Shown in pieces: positions 21,661-55,501 of a DNA stretch of 64,000 nt. The stretch spans positions 1,519,053-1,583,052 of the forward strand of contig CP092079.1 in NCBI GenBank assembly GCA_022226955.1, in the 5' to 3' direction. The DNA is from Nitrospira sp. Lineage in GTDB: Bacteria; Nitrospirota; Nitrospiria; Nitrospirales; Nitrospiraceae. Under the pieces are notes generated by a model that saw nothing but the letters and a program-made list of their open reading frames with translations, ran no database searches and was not told where the DNA came from. Positions within the stretch are counted from its first letter, which is position 1; every line of letters starts with the position of its first letter. The translations under genes and the position numbers were made by a program.

Positions 21661-22656
21661 ATGACCGACTACATGCACCTGGCGAACAAAGCGCTCAACG
21701 ATGAGCCTCTCACGAGAGCGGAATCGCTGTCCGTCTTGAACGCGCCGGACGACGACCTGCTCACGCTCCTGCATGCCGCCTTTCAAGTCCGCTCAAAATA
21801 CTTCGGCCGCACCGTTCGCCTCCAGATGCTGCAAAACGCCAAGAGCGGCGCCTGCATGGAAGACTGCCACTATTGCTCGCAATCCGCCGTCTCGAACGCG
21901 CCGATTGAACGCTATAACTTATTGCCGCAGAAACAGATGATCGAAGGCGCACGCCAAGCCGCCGCCTCGAAAGCCCAGCGCTACTGCATCGTCATCAGCG
22001 GACGCAGTCCGTTGGATCGGGAAATCGACGAGATCGCCGGAGCCGTCCGGTCAATCAAGCAGGAAATCCCGATACAGATCTGCTGTTCGCTCGGTTTGAT
22101 GAATGACGAACAGGCGAAACGCCTGAAAGCCGCCGGCGTCGATCGCGTGAACCACAACTTGAACACCAGCGAGGCCTACCACGAGTCGATTTGCACAACG
22201 CACACATTCCAAGACCGCCTGGCAACGATCAAGAACGCCCGCGCCGCAGGCTTGGAAATCTGCTCCGGCGGCATCGTGGGGATGGGAGAAAGCAACGAAG
22301 ATCTCATCGACCTCGCCACCGCTTTGCGCGACGTGAAGCCGGACTCGATTCCGTTGAACATGCTCAATCCGGTGGAAGGCACGCCGCTGGAGAACATCGA
22401 CGCCCTCACGCCGCAGCGCTGCCTCAAAGTCCTCTGCCTGTTCAGATTCCTGCATCCGCGCACAGAAATCCGCATCGCCGGCGGCCGCGAGCACAACCTC
22501 CGCAGTCTCCAGCCCCTCTCCCTCTATCCAGCTGATTCAGTTTTCGTGAACAACTACCTGACGACCCCCGGCTCCCCAGCGCCGGAAGTCTGGAGCATGA
22601 TCGAAGACCTGGGATTCAAGATTGAAGTGGACTATCAGCAGCCGGTGGCGAGCTAG
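21661..22656 (+). CDS. bioB: biotin synthase
   Basis: Radical SAM enzyme that inserts sulfur into dethiobiotin. 331 residues with CMEDCHYCSQS (CxxxCxxC cluster site), YCIVISGRSP, CCSLGLMNDEQA, HNLNTSEAYHESIC and GGIVGMGESNEDLIDLA. The conserved arginine region is IRIAGGREHNLRSLQ. The last 34 codons (22554-22656) are repeated at about 80% identity at 23364-23466, after the zeta-toxin-like genes, so this gene's 3' end may have been exchanged during insertion. Other bio genes are not in the window. Confidence 0.95.
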   Translation: MTDYMHLANKALNDEPLTRAESLSVLNAPDDDLLTLLHAAFQVRSKYFGRTVRLQMLQNAKSGACMEDCHYCSQSAVSNAPIERYNLLPQKQMIEGARQAAASKAQRYCIVISGRSPLDREIDEIAGAVRSIKQEIPIQICCSLGLMNDEQAKRLKAAGVDRVNHNLNTSEAYHESICTTHTFQDRLATIKNARAAGLEICSGGIVGMGESNEDLIDLATALRDVKPDSIPLNMLNPVEGTPLENIDALTPQRCLKVLCLFRFLHPRTEIRIAGGREHNLRSLQPLSLYPADSVFVNNYLTTPGSPAPEVWSMIEDLGFKIEVDYQQPVAS

Positions 22657-22664
22657 CCACGACG

Positions 22665-23195
22665 GTGGGCAACCGAAGGCTTCGAGACCCTCGTTGCATT
22701 ATTATCGCTGGTCCAAACGGTGCCGGAAAAACCACATTCGCTAGAGAGTTTCTCCTTCGCGAGACCGGAGTGATTCGTTTTGTGAATGCCGACTTGATCG
22801 CTGGTGGCTTATCGCCTCTACGACCAGAATTGGCAGCGCGGCAAGCAGGCCGACTTGTCCTGACCGAACTCTCCCGATTGGCTAAAGCCCGGAAAGACTT
22901 TGCCTTTGAAAGCACCTTGAGCGGCCGGACGTATCTTCAGCTTTTGAAGCGCTGGCAGACTGCTGGATACCGGATCGAGATCGTGTTCTTGTCGCTGCCG
23001 TCCGTGCAACTTGCGCTTCAACGAATCGCCGCGCGAGTCCATCAAGGCGGTCACAACGTCCCTCGTGCCGATGTCATCAGGCGGTTTAAGCGTAGTTGGG
23101 ACAACTTCAAGAAACTCTATCGCCCACTTGCCGAAAAGTGGTCCGTGTACGACAATTCAGGAGGAGCGCCTCAATTGGTGGAGGAGAACCCATGA
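22665..23195 (+). CDS. zeta-toxin-like P-loop kinase
   Basis: 176 residues from GTG 22665, eight bases after bioB. The P-loop IIIAGPNGAGKTTFAREF is followed by FVNADLIAGGLSP and FAFESTLSGRTYL, the order seen in zeta/PezT-type kinases, which phosphorylate UDP-activated sugars or other small molecules. Arginines in a late helix (RADVIRRFKRSWDNF) fit the lid region. The stop overlaps the next small gene by four bases (ATGA). Toxicity is inferred from family and from pairing with a small basic protein. Homologues of this short form are often annotated only as zeta toxin family ATPases. Confidence 0.8.
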   Translation: MGNRRLRDPRCIIIAGPNGAGKTTFAREFLLRETGVIRFVNADLIAGGLSPLRPELAARQAGRLVLTELSRLAKARKDFAFESTLSGRTYLQLLKRWQTAGYRIEIVFLSLPSVQLALQRIAARVHQGGHNVPRADVIRRFKRSWDNFKKLYRPLAEKWSVYDNSGGAPQLVEENP

Positions 23196-23350
23196 AGACG
23201 GTTCAAAAAAAGAAAACTCCGAGTGCTTTCTCTCAAGCCGTCTGTCGTGCACTCCGCAGAGCCGCCAAAGTCGCCCGCAAGACTGCCCGGATGCACGGGA
23301 CCCCAATCTATGTGTGGGAAAACGGCAAGGTCGTAGCGAAGAAGCCATGA
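23192..23350 (+). CDS. small basic protein paired with zeta-like gene, candidate antitoxin
   Basis: 52 residues from ATG 23192, which lies in the ATGA overlap with the stop of the zeta-like gene, after GGAGAA. The N-terminal half is a lysine/arginine-rich helix (SQAVCRALRRAAKVARKTAR). The end, GTPIYVWENGKVVAKKP, resembles a two-strand motif found in many short proteins encoded beside toxins. Function is unproven; the tight coupling suggests it neutralises or assists the kinase. Its own stop overlaps the ATG of the bioB tail copy, again by four bases. Confidence 0.65.
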   Translation: MKTVQKKKTPSAFSQAVCRALRRAAKVARKTARMHGTPIYVWENGKVVAKKP

Positions 23351-23466
23351 AGGTCGACGATCCCTACCTGACAACCATCAACTCATCACCACCGGAAGTC
23401 TGGAGCATGATCAAAAACCTCGGCTTCAAGATCGAAGTAGATTACCAGCAGCCGGTGGCGAGCTGA
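23347..23466 (+). pseudogene. displaced copy of the bioB 3' end, still an open 39-codon frame
   Basis: Bases 23364-23466 match the last 103 bases of bioB (22554-22656) with about 20 differences, ending in the same PEVWSMI and GFKIEVDYQQPVAS residues. In the last 20 codons most differences are silent, so both copies diverged as coding sequence. An ATG at 23347 overlaps the stop of the preceding small gene, so a 39-residue peptide could be made. The reading most consistent with this is a remnant of the resident bioB end (or of a donor bioB) left by insertion of the two genes between. Confidence 0.85.
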
Positions 23467-48510: not shown

Positions 48511-48635
48511 GCATAAAGAGCCTTACCTACAGAACATCAGGGCAAGTCTCCCACGATTATTGCCCACCCCCAAGGCCAGTGTTATAGTGCAACTGATGAA
48601 CCGCGCAACACTCCGAGGGATAGGACTCATTGTTT

Positions 48636-48872
48636 ATGAACACCGATCTTCTTCAGCGCATCACGATTGAACCAGGCAAATGCGGCGGCCGCCCGTGCAT
48701 CCGTGGCATGCGTATCCGTGTTCAGGACGTTCTGGACATGCTGGCCGCCGGTACTCCTGAAGAGGAGATCCTTCGCGACTACCCATACCTAGAGCATGAC
48801 GATATTCGCGCTACCCTCACCTATGCTGCCGCATACATGGATCATACGATCGTCTCCGCACAGCCCAGATGA
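48636..48872 (+). CDS. DUF433 family protein, likely antitoxin
   Basis: 78 residues from ATG 48636: RITIEPGKCGGRPCIRGMRI, VQDVLDMLAAGTPEEEIL and YPYLEHDDIRATLTYAAAY. This is the DUF433 winged-HTH pattern common in antitoxins. Its stop overlaps the start of the DUF5615 gene by four bases, the standard arrangement of this toxin-antitoxin type. Confidence 0.88.
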   Translation: MNTDLLQRITIEPGKCGGRPCIRGMRIRVQDVLDMLAAGTPEEEILRDYPYLEHDDIRATLTYAAAYMDHTIVSAQPR

Positions 48873-49198
48873 AATTTCTGGTTGATGCCAACCTTCCGCC
48901 CGGTCTTGCCACTTGGCTTCGCGAGCACTCACACGAAGCCACCCATGTATACGAGCAACCCGGCTTGTCGCTCGATGATCGAGCCATCTTCGAATTCTCG
49001 CGAGCACACGGATATACCATCGTCACAAAAGATGAGGACTTCGCAGCCCTCGTCATTCTCGACAAAAACCCAGCAGCAGTCGTATGGGTGCGATTCGGTA
49101 ACGCCACGAATGCCATGCTGAGAAACTGGCTTGAACCGCTTCTTCCTGAGATCGTGCAACGCCTAGCGGCCGGGGAAACGTTGATTGAAGTGGTCTAA
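48869..49198 (+). CDS. DUF5615 PIN-like protein, likely toxin
   Basis: 109 residues: MKFLVDANLPPGLATWLREHS, then LDDRAIFEFSRAHGYTIVTKDEDFA and VVWVRFGNATN. These match PIN-like DUF5615 proteins, whose conserved aspartates (VDANLP, TKDEDF) suggest RNase activity. Partner of the DUF433 gene. A decayed IS3 element follows directly on the other strand. Confidence 0.88.
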   Translation: MKFLVDANLPPGLATWLREHSHEATHVYEQPGLSLDDRAIFEFSRAHGYTIVTKDEDFAALVILDKNPAAVVWVRFGNATNAMLRNWLEPLLPEIVQRLAAGETLIEVV

Positions 49199-49199
49199 A

Positions 49200-49890
49200 G
49201 CCTCGAGAAGATTTCCCGAAACGTTCTGATACTCTTGTCGCATCAAGTGAATACGGATTGTTGAAATTGAGGCTGTCCTTCCCAACCTTTTGCGGACACG
49301 TTGCGCCCGGTTCGATACGGCTTCAAATGTCTCTGGTCTGACTCCGCTCAGATCGCTGTGTCGACGAATACGGTTATAGAAAGTCTCCGTATAGTCGGCG
49401 ATCTCAGCCGTCACGAGCTCCCGAGTTTGGGCATCAATGCACTTCTTGATCCACTTCTTCTCAAGTTACTAAAAAATGATCCGCCACGGCATTATCTCAA
49501 CGGTTGCCACATCGACTCCTGCAGGGCTCAAGGGGATGCGCTCGACAGAAGCTCCGCCACGCATCGCTGCCAAGTTGGGAACCTTGATCGGAATAAATCA
49601 GGCCATGCCGAGACTTTCGTTATCGCACAGCCATGAGGAGCGCATCCAGCACGAGGGCTTGAGCCAACATGGTCTTTGGTGGACCAGCCGACGATACGGC
49701 GCAAGCACAAGTCCATCACGACGGCCCAATATGGCCAACCTTCCCACATACGCGCGTAGGTAAGGTCGGTAACCCAGACGTGGGTGAACGGTAAACCCGC
49801 GTTGCAGTGTATGAGGGATGAACGGAGTGGAGGCACCGTATAGGCTATGCGGATCAGGTCAAGCACCCACTGATATCTTCCCACGCTCGA
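49200..49890 (-). mobile_element. decayed IS3-family transposase (orfB-like) remnant
   Basis: Read on the minus strand, pieces in different frames line up with the integrase core: VWVTDLTYARMWEGWPYWAV (first Asp), AQALVLDALLMA, RHGLIYSDQGSQLGSDAWRS (second Asp), then DNAVADHF where the catalytic Glu-SFF is expected, and finally YTETFYNRIRRHSDLSGVRPETFEA. Several frameshifts and stops interrupt it, and the third catalytic residue is lost. The N-terminal part and orfA are missing, so it is inactive. I could not define terminal inverted repeats. Exact ends are uncertain by tens of bases. Confidence 0.85.
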
Positions 49891-49952
49891 TCGGCAAGTA
49901 TTACAGGGTGCGCGGGGAAATGGGGTCTGACATCTCTCGAAGTTTTAGATTG

Positions 49953-50345
49953 CTAGATGGGTAATCGTAAGACTTCTTGATTAATCTTAAGTACACAACG
50001 ACGGTATTCTTCGAGATCATCACCATAAGGATCCTCAATATTCCAGGTCAGTAGCTTGGCTACTCGGACATTCGCAAGCTTTCTCGCCACATGTTTGTCT
50101 AACGCCACTACCAGGTCAAAATCCTGAAGATTCAGACCTTCGAGACCAGAAGGGACATGCCGAGAAATCGAGACGTCAAAGTGGGCTTTCAAGGTTTCCA
50201 GAGCATTCACAGCATCTTCCGGTGTTCCAGGTTTTAGTCCACAGGATTTTACGATAATGCTTTCTCCATGCCGCCTTCTTGTCAGCGCTTCTGCCATCAC
50301 GCTTCGACAAGTATTGCCGGTACAAACAAATAAGATCGAGGTCAT
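49953..50345 (-). CDS. low-molecular-weight protein-tyrosine phosphatase family protein
   Basis: 130 residues. The P-loop CTGNTCRS (C-x5-R-S) is at residues ~8-15 and the general acid loop EDPYGDDLEEY near residue 105, both needed for catalysis. VKSCGLKPGTPEDAVNALE fits LMW-PTP rather than arsenate reductase. Possible substrates include tyrosine-phosphorylated kinases of exopolysaccharide export or protein-arginine phosphate. The 247 bases upstream (50346-50592) hold no gene I can support. Confidence 0.9.
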   Translation of the reverse strand: MTSILFVCTGNTCRSVMAEALTRRRHGESIIVKSCGLKPGTPEDAVNALETLKAHFDVSISRHVPSGLEGLNLQDFDLVVALDKHVARKLANVRVAKLLTWNIEDPYGDDLEEYRRCVLKINQEVLRLPI

Positions 50346-50560
50346 GGCTAGTGCGGAGAGAGCGTTTTCACGTTAAATCTACTTGCATCTTCAAATGGCA
50401 AAGTTGGGGCCGGAAAAAGACAGCCCCGTGCCGCGAACGGTGTGGCTGCCAGATCTGGCCCTATCCTCTTTGCAGACGCAACGATTGAATCCAAAATGCA
50501 TCGAGCTATTCGGCTGAAGTCGTCACCACAACTTACTACTCATGCCTAAGCTGACTGGAT

Positions 50561-50590
50561 TTCCCCTTTCCCGCCGGATAGAGAGGGGAA
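50561..50590 (-). terminator. possible terminator hairpin after the 160-residue gene
   Basis: TTCCCCTTTC and GAGAGGGGAA pair with one mismatch around ten bases, directly at the stop codon. No U-run follows on the minus strand, so support is weak. Confidence 0.35.
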
Positions 50591-50592
50591 AA

Positions 50593-53096: not shown

Positions 53097-53333
53097 ATGC
53101 ACGACATCAACTGTTGCGTTCAGAATTGCCAAGCCACTCCCTACGCGCCGGCCGGCACCAAATCGGTCTGCAAGGACCACTTCATCAACTTCCTGACCTG
53201 GCGCCGCCGCCGAGGGCCGCAGATGTTCATGAAGTATGCCGCTATGACCATGGGCGAACGCGACACCGTCTCCGCCGAGTGGCAAAAGACCATCCAAGTC
53301 GACGAAGTCCCCTCCAACGCGCCGAAGAGCTAG
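53097..53333 (+). CDS. small conserved hypothetical protein, 78 aa
   Basis: 78 residues from ATG 53097. Cys/His near the start (CCVQNCQATPYAPAGTKSVC with KDHF) could form a zinc site. A basic WRRRRGP segment and an acidic-neutral helix with MGERDTVSAEWQKTI follow. No signal peptide. I do not recognise the family. It is isolated between the PhoD-like gene and the FRG gene. Confidence 0.68.
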   Translation: MHDINCCVQNCQATPYAPAGTKSVCKDHFINFLTWRRRRGPQMFMKYAAMTMGERDTVSAEWQKTIQVDEVPSNAPKS

Positions 53334-53370
53334 AGATAAGAACGGCGCTATTTTTGCTAGTCCTTTTCGC

Positions 53371-54174
53371 TTAGAGCCGTCCTTTCTCGCGCTTTTCTAT
53401 TTCTCTATATGCCAATGTCTCCATCAAAGATTCTTCATTGCCAAAGAGCGAGTACGCATTAACGTTCATCCTGTCGAGCTTTTCAAGAACCTTATCTCGC
53501 TCACTCGCAGATATAAGATATTTCACCAGCACATCCTGCGCTCCCTTGCTCACTTCAATGGCATCCTCGTGACTACAATACAACCATGCGCTGTTATCCC
53601 GTTTTTTGCATATCGTATATTCACACTGCTGAACATGATGTCTTCTATGTGCCGCAACATAAGACCCGCAACCAACAATAGTTGGAGCGCCAACTTGACC
53701 ACCTTTCCCACCCTCGACATACTCTCTAAAGATGTAGATTGCGACATTCTCTGCATCACGACGAGCATTTTGAAAAGCAAAAAATGCCGCGACATACGGT
53801 GATCGCGTCCAATCTAACAATGGCGAGGGAAATCCATGGTGCCTAAGATAGATCATGAATTCATACCCTGGAGGGGGCATAGGAATTCCATTCTCCTCTC
53901 TTTCCAATTCACCAAGACGAGGTGCGCTGGGGCTAAGCGTTAGCACGGATGGCTCAACCGCCCGCAATAGTTGAGAATACTCATTCACGGCATACGGACG
54001 CGGGGAAAACCGTTCTAATGTGGTGACAAGTTGCCACGAATCATTTGCCTGGCCTCGAAAAAGTGGAGATGAAACATAGTGCTCATTTTCTGTTTTGGCT
54101 GCGCGAACAACAGAAAAAACGTTCTCCACTTCAGCTTCAAAATCTTCCCATGTTGAGATCTGCTTCACCTTCAT
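53371..54174 (-). CDS. FRG domain protein, possible defence gene
   Basis: 267 residues with an FRG domain at the N-terminal half: SSPLFRGQANDSWQLVTTLER and FMIYLRHHGFPSPLLDWTRS followed by PYVAAFFAF, which matches the family consensus. The DNA is more AT-rich than its surroundings, suggesting transfer. FRG proteins are of unknown activity and are often found near phage-defence or mobile genes. The C-terminal half has no recognised domain. It lies next to the parDE-like module and the SnoaL tail remnant. Confidence 0.85.
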   Translation of the reverse strand: MKVKQISTWEDFEAEVENVFSVVRAAKTENEHYVSSPLFRGQANDSWQLVTTLERFSPRPYAVNEYSQLLRAVEPSVLTLSPSAPRLGELEREENGIPMPPPGYEFMIYLRHHGFPSPLLDWTRSPYVAAFFAFQNARRDAENVAIYIFREYVEGGKGGQVGAPTIVGCGSYVAAHRRHHVQQCEYTICKKRDNSAWLYCSHEDAIEVSKGAQDVLVKYLISASERDKVLEKLDRMNVNAYSLFGNEESLMETLAYREIEKREKGRL

Positions 54175-54261
54175 AAATGGACCTTAAACATTGGGGACCT
54201 GTGCTGCATCGATACTCGCTAAACGACAACCATGTCTAGGGAAACTCCACAAGGCCACAAC

Positions 54262-54357
54262 TCAGCCCACTATCACCGACGCATGGTGATGAATCAGCAG
54301 CCACTCGTCGCCGATGAGTTCGAAGAGATGCGCGATGCAATCGACCTCAGTCCATGC
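54262..54357 (-). pseudogene. remnant of the 3' end of a SnoaL-like gene
   Basis: Bases 54262-54357 keep an open frame ending HLFELIGDEWLLIHHHASVIVG, parallel to NLFERIGDEWLLIHHHGSAVMG at the end of the intact gene 55109-55501. Nine consecutive codons are identical. The remnant begins within five bases of the ParE-like stop. It has no start and is not a gene on its own. Confidence 0.82.
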
Positions 54358-54361
54358 CTAA

Positions 54362-54655
54362 TCACTCTCGGCCAACCCAATACATCGGTCGGCGCTTTAG
54401 GTTCATAACCGCAAGCACTCGCACGCGATCAGGTTTGACGGAATAGAGAAGTGCGTAAGGAAACCGGAGCACAAGTCGGCGGCGGATCGTCCCGGTGATC
54501 AATGGAGCGGCCTCAGGAAAATTCACGATGGCGTGAGTGCAGCGCTCGACCTCGTCAAGAAATGCGGCCCCGAGCCCGGGACTTTCTGACTCGTAGTACT
54601 GTGCGGCTTCGTTCAACTCACGGCGGGCTAACAGATGGTAGGAGACTCGCCCCAT
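54362..54655 (-). CDS. ParE/RelE-family toxin
   Basis: 97 residues: YHLLARRELNEAAQYYESES, LGAAFLDEVERCTHAIVNFPE, RRRLVLRFPYALLYSVKPDRV, VLAVMNLKRRPMYW. This is the ParE/RelE toxin fold in the HigB/ParE-like branch (gyrase poison or ribosome-dependent RNase). Its ATG directly abuts the stop of the antitoxin gene, so coupling is expected. Confidence 0.9.
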   Translation of the reverse strand: MGRVSYHLLARRELNEAAQYYESESPGLGAAFLDEVERCTHAIVNFPEAAPLITGTIRRRLVLRFPYALLYSVKPDRVRVLAVMNLKRRPMYWVGRE

Positions 54656-54880
54656 TCACTTCAGCTTGGCCCGTGCTTCGCGGAACACCTTCGCGGCCGG
54701 TATGCCGGCGTCAGAATCGGTATCCATGTCCGCATCTCTGCGCTGAGCCTCCTCGGCCCAGATTCTGGCATTTTCCTCTTCGGAAAGATTTTCCAAGCTC
54801 TCCAAGAGCTTCCCCGCCAAGCGCGCGCGTGCCTTTGGATCAAGCTTCAAAGCCTCAGCTTCAAGTTCCTTAATACTCAT
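54656..54880 (-). CDS. addiction-module antitoxin
   Basis: 74 residues: MSIKELEAEALKLDPKARAR, LAGKLLESLENLSEEENARI and a C-terminal acidic then basic tail. This opening is characteristic of the addiction-module component family that partners ParE/RelE-type toxins. TAAAAT lies about 8 bases before the ATG on this strand and could be a -10 box, giving a very short leader. Confidence 0.88.
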   Translation of the reverse strand: MSIKELEAEALKLDPKARARLAGKLLESLENLSEEENARIWAEEAQRRDADMDTDSDAGIPAAKVFREARAKLK

Positions 54881-54983
54881 GGGCGCATTTTACACCAAAC
54901 GACTGGATTCTTGAACTAGCCAACATCTCGATCACGGCACGCCTTGGACGAGCGCTTCCCACTCTTCCCCTCACCCCTCCCAG

Positions 54984-55101
54984 GCGGGCGACGGGGTGGT
55001 GTTCCCCTGCGCGCATTCACCGAGCATCGCCCACAATTGGGGGATACGATTGAGTCCCGCATGCGCGGGGAGCGAGCACGGAACACCACCTCGCCGCCCG
55101 C
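54984..55101. repeat. 118-bp imperfect palindrome after the SnoaL-like gene
   Basis: Arms 54984-55005 and 55080-55101 match in 20 of 22 bases (GGTGGTGTTCC / GGAACACCACC at the inner ends), with further pairing inside (CCCCTGCGCGCAT with ATGCGCGGGG). It begins eight bases beyond the SnoaL stop. It may be a terminator or a palindromic mobile element. Its sequence differs from the elements near thiC. Confidence 0.7.
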
Positions 55102-55108
55102 ACTCTCC

Positions 55109-55501
55109 CTACCCCATCACCGCCGACCCATGATGATGAATCAGCAGCCACTCGTCGCCGATGCGCTCGAAGAGATTCGTGGCGAGCACCTTGGCCTGCT
55201 GTGGTTCATCGGATTGTTGATTGACGATACTCTCGACACAGATTACCCAAGCCATATCCCCGGCCACCTGGATCATGACCTCGGACAATTCAAATTTCAT
55301 GGAGAACGTGTTGTTGAAAATCAATACCCAAGAATCCCGCACATCGGGCCAGTCCGACCGAAGCGTCCAGCCGGGATGAATGCAGGTGACATATTCCTGG
55401 TGCGCCCAGATGCGATCCATCTTGGCAATATCGAGGCTTTCGAACGCCTCGTAGAACGCTTGGTTGGCTTTCGTCACTTCATCAATGCGTTGTTCCAGCA
55501 T
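55109..55501 (-). CDS. SnoaL/NTF2-like domain protein
   Basis: 130 residues: RIDEVTKANQAFYEAFESLD, MDRIWAHQEYVTCIHPGW, VRDSWVLIFNNTF, VMIQVAGDMAWVICVESI, ATNLFERIGDEWLLIHHHGS. This is the cone-shaped NTF2 fold of the SnoaL-like/DUF4440 group; substrates vary widely and are unknown here. The last ~22 codons recur as a remnant at 54262-54357, with the ParDE-like genes between. Confidence 0.86.
   Translation of the reverse strand: MLEQRIDEVTKANQAFYEAFESLDIAKMDRIWAHQEYVTCIHPGWTLRSDWPDVRDSWVLIFNNTFSMKFELSEVMIQVAGDMAWVICVESIVNQQSDEPQQAKVLATNLFERIGDEWLLIHHHGSAVMG

Follow-up and report, generated by a model that had tools for sequence, protein, structure and literature searches.

Gene organization at the SnoaL locus

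We analysed a 64,000-nucleotide stretch of DNA (hereafter the window), corresponding to positions 1519053-1583052 of a single-contig, 3.64-Mb Nitrospira genome labelled G000, in which a toxin-antitoxin (TA) module lies between a SnoaL-like gene and a second copy of that gene's 3' end. On the minus strand, the order is SnoaL gene, inverted repeat, antitoxin gene, toxin gene and SnoaL tail copy. Specifically, the SnoaL_3 gene (55109-55501; Pfam E=1e-28) is intact, encodes 130 aa and ends with TAG; the region 3' of its stop (54976-55108, assigned to no strand) contains an imperfect inverted repeat with arms at 54984-55005 and 55080-55101, where the initial annotation had placed a palindrome; an antitoxin gene (54656-54880; PF09720 Unstab_antitox, E=2e-9) and a ParE-type toxin gene (54362-54655; PF05016, E=3e-6) follow; and the last ~23 codons of a second SnoaL 3' end, of the ELIG/TGA type with TGA as the stop, occupy 54262-54332. 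By family, the pair is a predicted type II TA module, scoring 37.6 and 28.1 bits against cut-offs of 23.3 and 23 for PF09720 and PF05016, respectively. It had been described as ParDE-like, which holds for the toxin but not for the antitoxin, a member of the 'addiction module component' family PF09720 and not of ParD.

The order of gene, TA pair and gene tail, as initially annotated, is supported by the Pfam matches and by a direct repeat of 67 nt (54266-54332 and 55113-55179; 87% identical), the spacing of which, 847, agrees with the displacement of about 850 bp given before. Since the core of the repeat (57 nt at 91%) has an E value of ~5e-18 within the 3.2-kb locus, the similarity is not due to chance. 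Nine consecutive codons are identical in the two copies, but the stop, which had been counted among the identical codons, is TAG in the gene and TGA in the remnant. In addition, the homology starts at 54332, 29 nt beyond the last base of the toxin gene (54362), and not within five bases of the toxin stop as had been stated.

SnoaL orthologues were present in most of the Nitrospira genomes searched, and the TA family of this locus occurs mainly in Nitrospira genomes. The inverted repeat is a member of an intergenic family that is dispersed in Nitrospira; G000 carries a second copy at 2480097, and two copies of it flank a TA pair at SnoaL in G029, G024, L051 and L052. Beyond the SnoaL tail lie an FRG-domain gene (53371-54174, minus strand), within a G000-specific segment (53333-54995) absent in the sibling genome G076, and a conserved gene without a Pfam match (53097-53333, plus strand), which in genomes with an empty site comes immediately after SnoaL and the inverted repeat.

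The bioB block and recurrence of the pattern

The same order had been noted at bioB with unrelated genes, and we found this to be the case. On the plus strand, intact bioB (21661-22656; stop TAG) is followed by a Zeta toxin gene (22665-23195; PF06414), an adjoining small ORF (23192-23350), which encodes a putative antitoxin and is kept with Zeta behind bioB in many relatives, and a second bioB 3' tail (23364-23466; stop TGA), which runs on into the sequence found downstream of bioB in G076. The two tails form a repeat of 101 nt (22554-22654 and 23364-23464; 83% identity, spacing 810), and the junction is at most ~16 nt from the antitoxin stop in G000 and G029, the donor flanks being too diverged to define it. 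In the bioB region of G077 (L271), a RelE-like TA pair precedes a second bioB tail and then a type I restriction-modification (RM) methylase-like gene. In that of G099 (L205), bioB is followed in tandem by a nucleotidyltransferase-type pair and the Zeta module, which suggests that TA modules were added more than once at the same gene.

The architecture reported for these two unrelated genes is real and was found at many further loci and in many genomes, most of the relatives being draft or metagenome-assembled genomes; the SnoaL block is one case of a genus-wide Nitrospira pattern. An unbiased scan covering 1.66 of the 3.64 Mb of G000 gave 69 near direct-repeat pairs, 14 of which were inspected in detail in addition to the known bioB and SnoaL pairs. 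Among these inspected and known pairs, six enclosed TA modules, namely polA/HicAB, a VapBC pair upstream of dnaE, a PIN toxin at 1218 kb, mtnA with an AbiEii-type module, bioB/Zeta and SnoaL/ParE; the remaining inspected pairs were a tRNA-end repeat, paralogues, insertion sequence-like, repetitive or unclear. In the tRNA case, the 3' end is repeated exactly (50 nt, 100%; L072:14345-14394 and L072:16914-16963, in G000:C1:134345-136963) around 2.5 kb with one gene for a 560-aa protein, a classic attachment-site pattern with no visible integrase.

Flanking direct repeats (threshold of >=45 bits) were present at seven of 26 other TA loci in G000, chosen blindly by Pfam family (ParE, PIN, HicA and Unstab_antitox), versus 53 of 3000 random positions, a control taken from one genome only (Fisher p=4e-7), and uvrA and ppx/gppA tails were among the seven. 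For BrnT, a single locus was taken from each of 27 related genomes; 10 of the 27 loci had such flanking repeats (p=5e-11), with clear gene tails in 6-7 of the 10, from pilT, a putative methyltransferase gene, polA and a small envelope-type gene. The TA family of the SnoaL locus was found elsewhere behind a gene for a 438-aa protein (L016; tail copy of 154 nt, 93.5%), behind a multihaem-type cytochrome gene (tail copies of 167 nt in L017 and 75 nt in L018) and, in a planctomycete (L057), behind tilS (tail copy of 211 nt, 83%). The genes with tails duplicated around TA modules thus include bioB, polA, mtnA, uvrA, ppx/gppA, pilT, the cytochrome gene and planctomycete tilS; the flanking repeats varied in length from 36 to 234 nt, and one case (cstA, L035) was at the 5' part of the gene.

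Empty sites and exchange of modules

Comparison with related strains, which the initial annotation had proposed as a check, showed that the sibling G076 (~90% identical) has uninterrupted SnoaL and bioB genes. It is collinear with window positions 16924-59550 except for three segments that it lacks: the bioB module, a DUF433/DUF5615 TA segment (48511-50591) and the SnoaL module together with the FRG gene. At bioB, the end of the G076 gene passes straight into the sequence that follows the remnant in G000, with an overlap of 83 nt and TGA as the stop in both. The SnoaL site is without a module in G076, G095 and G065, where SnoaL is followed by the inverted repeat and the next gene. The 2-kb segment at 48511-50591 carries a DUF433/DUF5615 (PIN-like) TA-type pair, a low-molecular-weight phosphatase-like gene and a fragment resembling a transposase relic, and no flanking repeat was seen there. 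Over ~315 kb, G000 has 11 insertions of 0.3-5 kb relative to G076, five of which, by our own reading, carry TA-type genes (ParE, Zeta, DUF433/DUF5615, Unstab_antitox/ParE and a nucleotidyltransferase/HepT-like pair, the last assigned by eye); a tail overlap was found only at the bioB insertion. A 14.4-kb segment (G000:C1:1598589-1612994) is also absent from G076.

Different genomes have unrelated TA families (Zeta, HicAB, BrnT, PIN, AbiEii, ParE and RelE-like) in the same slots. For example, with G000 included in each count, a second tail was present downstream of polA in 12 of 27 genomes, of mtnA in five of 30 and of bioB in three of 30; depending on the genome, the polA slot holds HicAB, BrnT, PIN_2 or a Phd-like antitoxin, the bioB slot Zeta or a RelE-like module, and the mtnA slot AbiEii, NTase_sub_bind or PIN. 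At SnoaL, two inverted-repeat copies enclose a different TA in G029 and G024, G093 has an antitoxin and a truncated toxin followed by the TA type of the window, G021 has the other TA and then a SnoaL tail, and in G032 a SnoaL tail is present in decayed form without a TA. The idea that a TA family itself targets gene ends was rejected because unrelated families share these slots.

Origin of the two tails

The remnant had been taken as the end of the same gene, displaced by about 850 bp. It is not simply that end moved away: codon-position bias, swapped stops and clade-specific residues show that the two tails come from different lineages. In 16 copy pairs, the differences between tails were distributed over the three codon positions as 53:33:159, that is, 159 of 245 at third positions (p=4e-11 against an expectation of 44%, which is our assumption), and single genes gave 0:0:7 (polA), 0:0:13 (the cytochrome gene of L017) and 1:2:17 (pilT, L297). 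Remnants retain their protein sequence even where a frameshift occurred later. Because the differences are mostly at third positions, the tails diverged as working genes in separate lineages, as coding sequence and before they were joined, and simple duplication of the target is therefore disfavoured.

Which of the two tails is native appears to differ between loci. The polA gene of G000 ends with TAG, like most HicAB-linked polA genes, and its remnant with TAA, like most near relatives free of HicAB; in mtnA, the remnant has the canonical end KPGELAGRFQS and the gene the unusual KPTDISTRFR. At bioB, mtnA and polA, the displaced tail looks native and the present end of the gene imported. The SnoaL remnant, carrying ELIG and TGA as found in another SnoaL clade, looks foreign; a rule that the remnant is always the native end, which fits bioB, polA and mtnA, was rejected for this reason.

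Proposed route and alternative explanations

We think it probable that the blocks are scars of TA modules imported together with a core-gene 3' end from another Nitrospira, by a homology-anchored, one-ended event resembling homology-facilitated illegitimate recombination (HFIR). The incoming fragment would carry a foreign core-gene 3' end and a TA module; the shared core gene would serve as the homologous anchor by pairing with its resident counterpart, and the opposite end of the fragment would be joined without long homology near the end of the resident gene, by HFIR or an equivalent one-ended or circular exchange. This would leave the core gene intact, the module behind it and one tail, native or foreign, on the far side. 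A shared homologous anchor and tails from two lineages, both expected under HFIR, were observed. Once bracketed by tails, we infer, the module could be exchanged, lost or passed on by ordinary RecA recombination without a transposase, and it would be retained through addiction or defence; such exchange may be why the same slot holds different TA families. More tentatively, core-gene 3' ends might be interchangeable docking slots for TA modules across Nitrospira and at least one planctomycete, the tail acting as an attachment site for ordinary homologous recombination and conferring a recombinase-free, cassette-like mobility that could explain the scattered distribution of lone TA modules.

Several observations weigh against import of this kind. 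About two thirds of TA loci have no detectable flanking repeat; as several of the BrnT cases have inherited a common site, the p-values for flanking repeats overstate independence; and some tail repeats enclose other cargo, such as a putative lipoprotein gene at SnoaL in G032 and a small membrane-type ORF at polA in G017, so that the process is not exclusive to TA modules. The second bioB tails in G029 and G077 would allow precise excision, and not the ancestral state, for the empty bioB site of G076. The SnoaL tail has only ~23 codons, its foreign origin rests on few sites, and G076 is equally close to both SnoaL copies in the first 51 nt (49/51). Neither a transfer nor a donor haplotype identical with the imported DNA was observed.

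An unlikely alternative is that a module entered the gene end and duplicated ~50-230 bp of its target, one copy of which then decayed. The length and variable size of the repeats, the lack of terminal repeats, the precise empty site at bioB in G076 and the canonical end on the displaced mtnA copy would all fit, and insertion with long target duplications has been reported for RM systems (PMC3874152, PMC3031569). However, copies that were initially identical should not come to differ mainly at third positions, as ours do (7/7 in polA and 13/13 in L017), nor should a decaying copy carry a different intact stop codon; simple long target duplication was rejected for most cases by this bias. A circle of TA and tail, freed in one strain by recombination between the tail repeats and entering the corresponding gene of a second strain through one Campbell-type RecA crossover, would also account for the two-lineage origin of the tails, for the unchanged cargo and for its spread across genomes at one gene, and the repeats are long enough for homologous exchange. 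We regard such a circle as decidedly improbable: a prior event would be needed to fuse tail and TA, so that the circle cannot explain how the blocks first arose, circles were not observed, and reverse arrangements such as polA, X, polA tail and HicAB in G017 require extra steps.

That the tails are attL and attR of an integrase-driven element, now a relic, is very improbable. The position of the targets at gene 3' ends would fit, as would the tRNA-end repeat in the same genome, but the inspected short inserts held TA genes or small ORFs and no integrase or other recombinase gene, the target genes are many and unrelated, the repeats are not of constant length and the cstA case is at a 5' part. 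We give hardly any credence to the refuting case named in the initial annotation, in which a tandem SnoaL paralogue was once present and was lost independently of the TA module, leaving its end as the remnant. The decayed tail without TA in G032 would suit it, but the remnant matches orthologues of this same SnoaL gene (49/51 nt to G076), no other SnoaL copy was found by a genome-wide DNA search or, at the protein level, within the 1.66 Mb, G076 has one SnoaL and no remnant, and the architecture recurs at single-copy bioB, polA, mtnA, uvrA and pilT. An insertion sequence or transposon was rejected, there being no transposase and the inverted repeat in G000, of a dispersed family, lying only on the gene side of the TA.

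Significance and comparison with known systems

How lone chromosomal TA modules move without a transposase or integrase is a long-standing question. Our data suggest that in Nitrospira they do so by borrowing the ends of neighbouring genes as recombination handles. Since the scars occur often, can be dated and are linked to named core genes, this route is directly testable; if it is correct, housekeeping genes would acquire foreign ends as a by-product, and in any genome a gene-tail fragment close to a TA module could serve to reveal TA transfer. The cargo proteins can be recognised as belonging to PF09720/PF05016, HicAB, BrnT, VapBC, Zeta and AbiEii, and the novelty lies in the placement and exchange of the modules, not in the proteins. 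A limited literature search found no paper joining 'toxin-antitoxin' with 'homology-facilitated'.

HFIR is known from laboratory transformation and conjugation in Acinetobacter, Streptococcus, Pseudomonas stutzeri and E. coli. It has been described in E. coli conjugation (PMC3240628) and discussed for small variable segments (PMC2884548), and shares with our blocks one homologous and one illegitimate end, with foreign DNA trapped beside a shared gene; unlike the laboratory cases, it would here be a recurrent natural route for TA modules, as deduced from sequence alone. For effector-immunity modules of the type VI secretion system (T6SS), sequential displacement has been described and HFIR proposed (PMC5361080). 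There too, poison-antidote cargo has been added after a conserved anchor of homologous sequence, leaving mixed arrays and displaced 3' ends. However, the T6SS anchor is part of the effector locus, whereas the anchors in Nitrospira are unrelated housekeeping genes, left intact, and the cargo is intracellular TA.

RM systems inserted with a long target duplication were reportedly described by Nobusato et al. in 2000. Like them, the blocks studied here have selfish 'addiction' cargo, no transposase, variable direct repeats of ~100 bp and empty sites in relatives. The blocks differ in that their cargo consists of TA modules, type II and others, from many families, in that most of the repeats are core-gene 3' ends, and in that both copies diverged as coding sequence in different lineages and did not arise by simple duplication.
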